In this document: piece after piece, positions 22,734-24,481 of the stretch
Position numbering within the stretch: position 1 is the first letter of the stretch
Layout of the letters: each line of letters opens with the position of its first letter
Source of the DNA: Streptomonospora salina
GTDB lineage: Bacteria > Actinomycetota > Actinomycetes > Streptosporangiales > Streptosporangiaceae
Direction of reading: 5' to 3'
Assembly: GCF_014204715.1 (NCBI RefSeq)
Contig: NZ_JACHLY010000001.1
Span: 1,705,001-1,769,000 of the forward strand
Length of the DNA stretch: 64,000 bases
The notes under the pieces: generated by a model
What the model was told of the DNA's origin: nothing
What the model saw: the letters and a program-made list of their open reading frames with translations, nothing else
Database searches by the model: none
Position numbers and translations under genes: made by a program

Positions 22734-23333
22734 TCAGCCGAACATCAGTACCAGGAACACCCCGAGCACCAGGACGACCACGGATCCGATCGTGGCGGCG
22801 GCGGATCCCACTGTGGCGACCAGGACTTCGGTGGCGATCGTGCCCGCTACCGCGGCTGCCGGCCAGGGCCAGCGCGGCGAGGCCTTCCAGCCGTGGCGCC
22901 GCTCGCGATAGGCCGTGATCAGCGCGGCCGCGCCCAGGAGCGCCCAGAACGCCAGGTGCCACACGGCGCGGGTGGTCGGCTCCAGGTAGTCGGCCCAGCT
23001 GGCGGTGAACATGACGAACAGGACCGTGGTGGTCCACAACCGCCAGTGCCCCTTGCTCCCGAAAGCGGGGATGGCCTTGCGCCGTGCCGGTTCGACACGG
23101 CGGAACCGCTCGCCGGCGACCGGCGCCTGGTCCGCAGAGCCGGCTCCGGTCGCCTCCTCGCCGGACGGCGGCCCGCCGGGCGGCGGTGGCTCGGAGGGAT
23201 CGACGGGCAGCTGGTAGCCGCCGGGGGCGTGGTGTCCGGGCGGGAACTCGCCGCCGCCCTGGTGGCGTCCGCGCTCGGGGCGCGGCTGGGATCGGGGATG
23301 CTCTGGCGAGGGCTGCTCGGGGTGGTCGGGCAC
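22734..23333 (-). CDS. conserved-type membrane protein of unknown function
   Basis: 199 residues, no family recognised. The first 85 residues are a hydrophilic Pro/Gly/His-rich region (PPPPGGPPSGEEATG and similar) predicted to be disordered and cytoplasmic; the rest has about four membrane helices (TTTVLFVMFTASWADYL, AVWHLAFWALLGAAALITA, PAAAVAGTIATEVLVATVG, TIGSVVVLVLGVFLVLMF). GTG 23333 with AAAGGACGG upstream is the best start. Convergent with tatB. It could be a small membrane-organising protein; nothing in the sequence gives a substrate or enzyme activity. Confidence 0.7.
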   Translation of the reverse strand: MPDHPEQPSPEHPRSQPRPERGRHQGGGEFPPGHHAPGGYQLPVDPSEPPPPGGPPSGEEATGAGSADQAPVAGERFRRVEPARRKAIPAFGSKGHWRLWTTTVLFVMFTASWADYLEPTTRAVWHLAFWALLGAAALITAYRERRHGWKASPRWPWPAAAVAGTIATEVLVATVGSAAATIGSVVVLVLGVFLVLMFG

Positions 23334-23528: not shown

Positions 23529-23572
23529 AACGCCGTCCTCCGACCCGGGGGCACAGGCCGGGGGACGGCGTT
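23529..23572. terminator. hairpin after the small secreted peptide gene
   Basis: Perfect 10-bp arms AACGCCGTCC / GGACGGCGTT with a 24-base loop that can pair further (CCCGG / CCGGG), 37 bp beyond the stop of the 39-residue peptide gene. No T-run. Confidence 0.45.
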
Positions 23573-23608
23573 GTCACTCGGACGTCGTCCGGCGACCGAA
23601 CCGGCCTG

Positions 23609-23728
23609 TCAGGCCCAGCTCCAGCCGGTCGTCGACGCCTGGGCCGTGTCGGCGCTGGCAGCGGGAATCGAAGGCGCGAGAACCGCGGTTACAGCGAGCA
23701 CGACCACCGCGAAGGATTTCTTCAGCAC
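23609..23728 (-). CDS. 39-residue secreted peptide
   Basis: Tiny exported peptide of 39 residues: a signal peptide MLKKSFAVVVLAVTAVLA ending in SIPAASA, then a mature tail of about 13 residues, DTAQASTTGWSWA. The GTG start at 23728 has AAAGG 6 bases upstream and lies about 35 bases after a convincing promoter, with a hairpin downstream, so the whole unit looks like a monocistronic gene. No family recognised. It has no Cys, no lanthipeptide-like core and no processing enzymes next to it. A signalling or surface peptide is possible but is only a guess; a longer start at 23806 would place a Met-rich leader before the signal and lacks a ribosome site. Confidence 0.6.
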   Translation of the reverse strand: MLKKSFAVVVLAVTAVLAPSIPAASADTAQASTTGWSWA

Positions 23729-23769
23729 AGTGCACCTTTCCATTACATCAACATCCATCCCCGGGGCGT

Positions 23770-23799
23770 AAGATAATCCACCGGTCACACTTCGCGCAA
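23770..23799 (-). promoter_or_regulatory. promoter of the 39-residue peptide gene
   Basis: Minus-strand TTGCGC (-35) and TATCTT (-10) separated by 18 bases, with an expected start near 23763, 35 bases before the GTG. The surrounding sequence is unusually AT-rich for this window. Confidence 0.55.
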
Positions 23800-24445: not shown

Positions 24446-24481
24446 AAAAAAGCCAGGTCAGAGACGAACCCTGACCTGGCT
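24446..24481 (-). terminator. tRNA-Ala terminator
   Basis: Classical intrinsic terminator: 11-bp stem AGCCAGGTCAG / CTGACCTGGCT with a 9-base loop and a run of six T on the minus strand, 6 bases past the tRNA 3' end. Confidence 0.92.

Follow-up and report, generated by a model that had tools for sequence, protein, structure and literature searches.

The window analyzed here, a 64,000-nucleotide stretch of Streptomonospora salina DNA, carries on its minus strand a 39-codon open reading frame plus stop codon (23609..23728) whose product, VLKKSFAVVVLAVTAVLAPSIPAASADTAQASTTGWSWA, has the features of a small secreted aromatic peptide. Upstream lie a -35 element TTGCGC (23794..23799) and, after an 18-bp spacer, a -10 element TATCTT (23770..23775), followed by the Shine-Dalgarno sequence GGAAAGGT (23734..23741) and a GTG start codon (23726-23728). 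The signal peptide VLKKSFAVVVLAVTAVLAPSIPAASA (23651..23728), with signal peptidase I cleavage predicted after Ala-Ser-Ala, precedes a 13-residue mature tail DTAQASTTGWSWA (23612..23650) that holds one G-[W/F]-x-W unit and ends in Gly-Trp-Ser-Trp-Ala (minus-strand reading of 23529-23799). Beyond the stop codon (23609-23611) is a terminator-like hairpin without a T-run (23529..23572). An earlier note on this DNA had placed a promoter, ribosome site, GTG, 39 codons, stop and hairpin at these positions, where all were found, and had read them as a stand-alone transcription unit for a short secreted peptide, which comparative data support; the elements are conserved. The GTG CTC AAG AAG start and a GAAAGG ribosome site are common to several genera in the family alignment, and the relative G163 has ATG at the position where the window gene has GTG, supporting the assigned start.

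In genomes with enough flanking sequence the locus order is SepX/GlpR, tRNA-Ala(CGC), the peptide gene, a 199-residue membrane protein and TatB; a few genera have insertions of unrelated genes to one or the other side of the peptide gene. The 199-residue protein (22734-23333, minus strand) had no Pfam or NCBIfam match and is conserved both in the clade of genomes carrying the peptide and in its sister clade, Nocardiopsis proper. An intrinsic-terminator-like hairpin with a T-run just downstream of tRNA-Ala (24451-24481, minus strand) separates the tRNA from the peptide gene. The absence of adjacent modifying enzymes, remarked on in the earlier note, extends to the relatives, where the adjoining genes differ between genera, are housekeeping or unrelated, and include no conserved partner gene.

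Comparison with relatives indicates that the 39-codon frame is almost certainly a real gene for a peptide with predicted export. Frame-breaking changes were looked for in close relatives and none occurred in the genus: all five other Streptomonospora genomes keep an intact frame of 39 codons, at 64-79% identity. A conserved island of ~340 bp (about -140 to +200) spans promoter, reading frame and hairpin in the genus alignment, with identity mostly 65-95% per 20-bp step, though lower just before the hairpin, past the stop codon; outside the island it is mostly 25-60%. The pN/pS ratio was 0.36 for codons 2-26 (the signal part) and 0.86 for the tail, giving 0.53 for the whole frame, compared with 0.60-1.62 for the five other frames; as judged from these substitutions, the signal peptide is under purifying selection. 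On the conservation, the frame test and the covariation of the hairpin, we reject a chance open reading frame.

The hairpin is GC-rich, consists of 10+8 bp, and begins 36 bases 3' of the stop codon, with a z-score of -2.85 when a 106-nt stretch was folded. Across five sequences 96% of cells were paired and five pairs showed compensatory change, a covariation score that 0 of 500 shuffles reached, and in nearly all relatives the stop codon is closely followed by a strong hairpin. Lacking a T-run, the window hairpin would terminate without a U-tail, and for the same reason a simple terminator scan did not list it.

Conservation also extends across genera into the promoter, where the alignment shows the block gGG.cTTGTGc...gTG.C.GATaggTCATCTT followed by an CGGGGATGGA leader. 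The family consensus is cTTGTGc for the conserved -35 element and CATCTT for the -10 element, and in many relatives the spacer holds TGACC-GATA-GGTCA or a variant. The full pattern occurs once in the genome of the window, and a scan of 54 genomes led us to reject a promoter regulon: at the stringency used, wherever the site was found at the peptide it was present once per genome. Two Nocardiopsis matches upstream of a glycosyltransferase-like gene at a different locus are probably due to chance. On the plus strand, a promoter-like TCAACA-18-GATAAT (23748-23777) overlaps the peptide promoter.

The peptide was searched for in four overlapping genome sets: 40 relatives, 343 family members, 347 genomes from the order and 395 from the class. 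Orthologues turned up at one syntenic locus in 30 genomes, spread over 15 genera; among them are six of six Streptomonospora genomes, the Nocardiopsis halophila clade and Thermobifida fusca. All but one were matched at E-values of 1e-8 to 1e-16; the remaining one, G159, is weaker, yet syntenic. Carriers picked up by a scan with the promoter-plus-start pattern were found, among others, in Streptomonospora alba, S. mangrovi, Thermobifida fusca, T. cellulosilytica, Actinorugispora endophytica and Allosalinactinospora lopnorensis, as well as in N. halophila, N. potens, N. suaedae, N. endophytica, N. ansamitocini and N. chromatogenes.

Forty genomes of Nocardiopsis proper gave no copy of the gene; the seven genomes read at the syntenic interval contain the interval with no similar reading frame inside, and the weak matches inspected in this clade were chaplin-type frames rather than copies of the peptide. 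In a tree of concatenated neighbor genes all carriers form one clade next to Nocardiopsis proper, with weak support at the deepest carrier node (0.12) and 0.92 one node up. Together with the empty interval in Nocardiopsis proper, this topology suggests a single event, probably either acquisition by the carrier clade or loss from Nocardiopsis proper, then vertical descent. The gene is single copy, and plasmid and phage collections gave no match to the peptide at the sensitivity tried.

Family members share a signal peptide of the pattern (V/M)LKK-ICAVAAISAAA..G...PA-A-x-A, usually with D or E next, and this segment is better conserved than the linker. The [W/F]xW unit occurs in 29 of 29 members, in one to four copies, and its second W is invariant in an 18-member alignment. 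Streptomonospora and some other genera have one copy, Thermobifida and others have two, and three to four occur in G162 (N. potens) and its relative G159; G162 has four copies of WSW, and G012 the same number of GGFSWW. Tails range from 13 to ~60 residues, and beyond Streptomonospora they are often 37-60 residues long with units that are usually GWSWW. The T. fusca orthologue (L058) has 71 residues in all. The mature peptides are mostly neutral or acidic, with a net charge of -1 for the window tail (at the predicted ASA cut) and -10 to +1 in the family (at cuts chosen by script), negative or zero except in two members. In the N. halophila clade the GWSWW units are fixed while change in the tail runs close to the synonymous rate (tail pN 0.12-0.14 versus pS 0.09-0.12 of flanking genes, no difference by Fisher test); pairwise ratios above 1 there are not significant against the flanking synonymous rate and so give no sign of positive selection on the tail.

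Two side observations come from the relatives. At L059:1396-1611 (minus strand), the orthologue of the Thermobifida-genus member G337 ends just before the second GWTWW unit, where sister sequences read Trp, and was probably shortened by a stop codon at that unit. Another very short secreted-type reading frame in a relative (L114, at G096:C66:3878-3967, minus strand) ends in the repeats ...GDNWGTTLGDNWGTSLGDDWATGFGSVWG and is possibly a second family of aromatic-repeat peptides.

Searches of Pfam, NCBIfam and the PDB found no relative of the peptide, and the window peptide with four relatives gave no Pfam match except one at chance level to another family. AlphaFold2 models of two long members had mean pLDDT values of 45 and 49, too low to assign either a fold or a beta assembly with confidence. 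We found no paper combining these motifs with this genomic context, and the gene is apparently undescribed. The closest resemblance is to the short chaplins (PF03777), which are very short, Sec-exported actinobacterial peptides with similar LKK..AV.AI.AAA signal peptides. The window peptide shares the predicted Sec signal on a short chain, but it and the four relatives have no match to the ChpA-C domain (PF03777), and its tail has the aromatic W-x-W unit in place of a cysteine pair. Chaplins are encoded separately in 21 of 21 genomes checked, carriers and non-carriers alike, so the peptide is no replacement for them.

These features lead us to propose, tentatively, that the product is an aromatic peptide associated with the cell surface or wall and that [G]-[W/F]-x-W serves as its interaction unit. 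The monocistronic gene would yield a 39-residue precursor that the conserved N-terminal signal peptide directs through Sec, and cleavage by signal peptidase I after Ala-Ser-Ala would release a 13-residue, slightly acidic peptide with its Trp-Ser-Trp unit outside the cell. There the unit may mediate self-association or bind a cell-surface or environmental partner, acting as a sticky element that is single in short members and present up to four times in long ones, with the detail of the linker unimportant. The varying copy number and neutrally drifting linker make us lean toward surface or avidity binding and away from a length-constrained pheromone.

An extracellular signal, in which the released tail would act like a pheromone on a receptor encoded at an unlinked site, is an unlikely but not unreasonable alternative. 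The stand-alone gene, the short secreted tail with its aromatic end and the differences in tail between species are all consistent with it, and the streptococcal ComS/SHP pheromones likewise combine a tiny gene with a C-terminal aromatic motif. Against it, a span of 13 to ~60 residues with one to four units is unusual for a receptor ligand, and the change in the tail does not exceed the neutral rate. No receptor or exporter is conserved beside the gene, and no RRNPP/Rgg-type receptor gene adjoins it in the window, where its neighbors are tRNA-Ala, SepX, the 199-residue protein and TatB; the absence of an adjacent Rgg-type regulator, the signal peptidase site and the variable repeat number all set the peptide apart from ComS/SHP.

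Distinctly unlikely is a RiPP-like precursor in which each repeat is a core and W-x-W is cross-linked by an enzyme encoded elsewhere. Short aromatic cores repeated behind a conserved N-terminus would fit such a precursor, and W-x-W is a motif of darobactin and some other cross-linked short peptides. However, instead of a typical RiPP leader the peptide begins with a Sec signal that has an A-x-A site, and in none of the genera examined does the locus include a conserved modifying enzyme. An antimicrobial or bacteriocin-type function, suggested by a small, secreted, Trp-rich peptide, is quite improbable: indolicidin-type antimicrobial peptides are short, Trp-rich and cationic, whereas nearly all members here carry a negative or zero charge, no immunity gene or transporter is conserved beside the gene, and descent at one locus is vertical with no match in the plasmid and phage collections at the sensitivity tried.

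We consider it very improbable that this is a small membrane peptide resembling type I toxins, with the hydrophobic stretch staying in the membrane. The size, the single hydrophobic helix and the opposite-strand promoter-like site would suit a toxin, but the A-x-A cleavage motif is conserved, the gene is single copy and vertically inherited, and the opposite-strand site points away from the reading frame and has a -10 element that is not kept in relatives. Scarcely tenable is that the frame is not a protein gene at all, whether a chance frame or a leader peptide whose Trp codons 5' of a terminator hairpin control the next gene, because signal peptide and aromatic unit are conserved over 15 genera, pN/pS is lower than in every other frame, there is no fixed downstream operon (the downstream gene varies between genera and may be kilobases away), and the hairpin follows the stop codon with no alternative pairing in the folds made.

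Based on sequence comparison, the variable repeats, drifting acidic linker and lack of a fixed partner fit better with a surface role than with a pheromone, a cationic antimicrobial or a locus-encoded RiPP. With rather low confidence, the peptide could also be the first representative of a hitherto undescribed secreted family with one to four W-x-W units, whose members would serve as dedicated signals outside the cell or as multi-core precursors that an enzyme from another locus modifies. Most gene callers miss very short secreted peptides, so little is known of what they do in the development and competition of actinobacteria; the one described here occupies a single locus across 15 genera, including the well-studied T. 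fusca, and has its own conserved promoter, which makes it directly testable.
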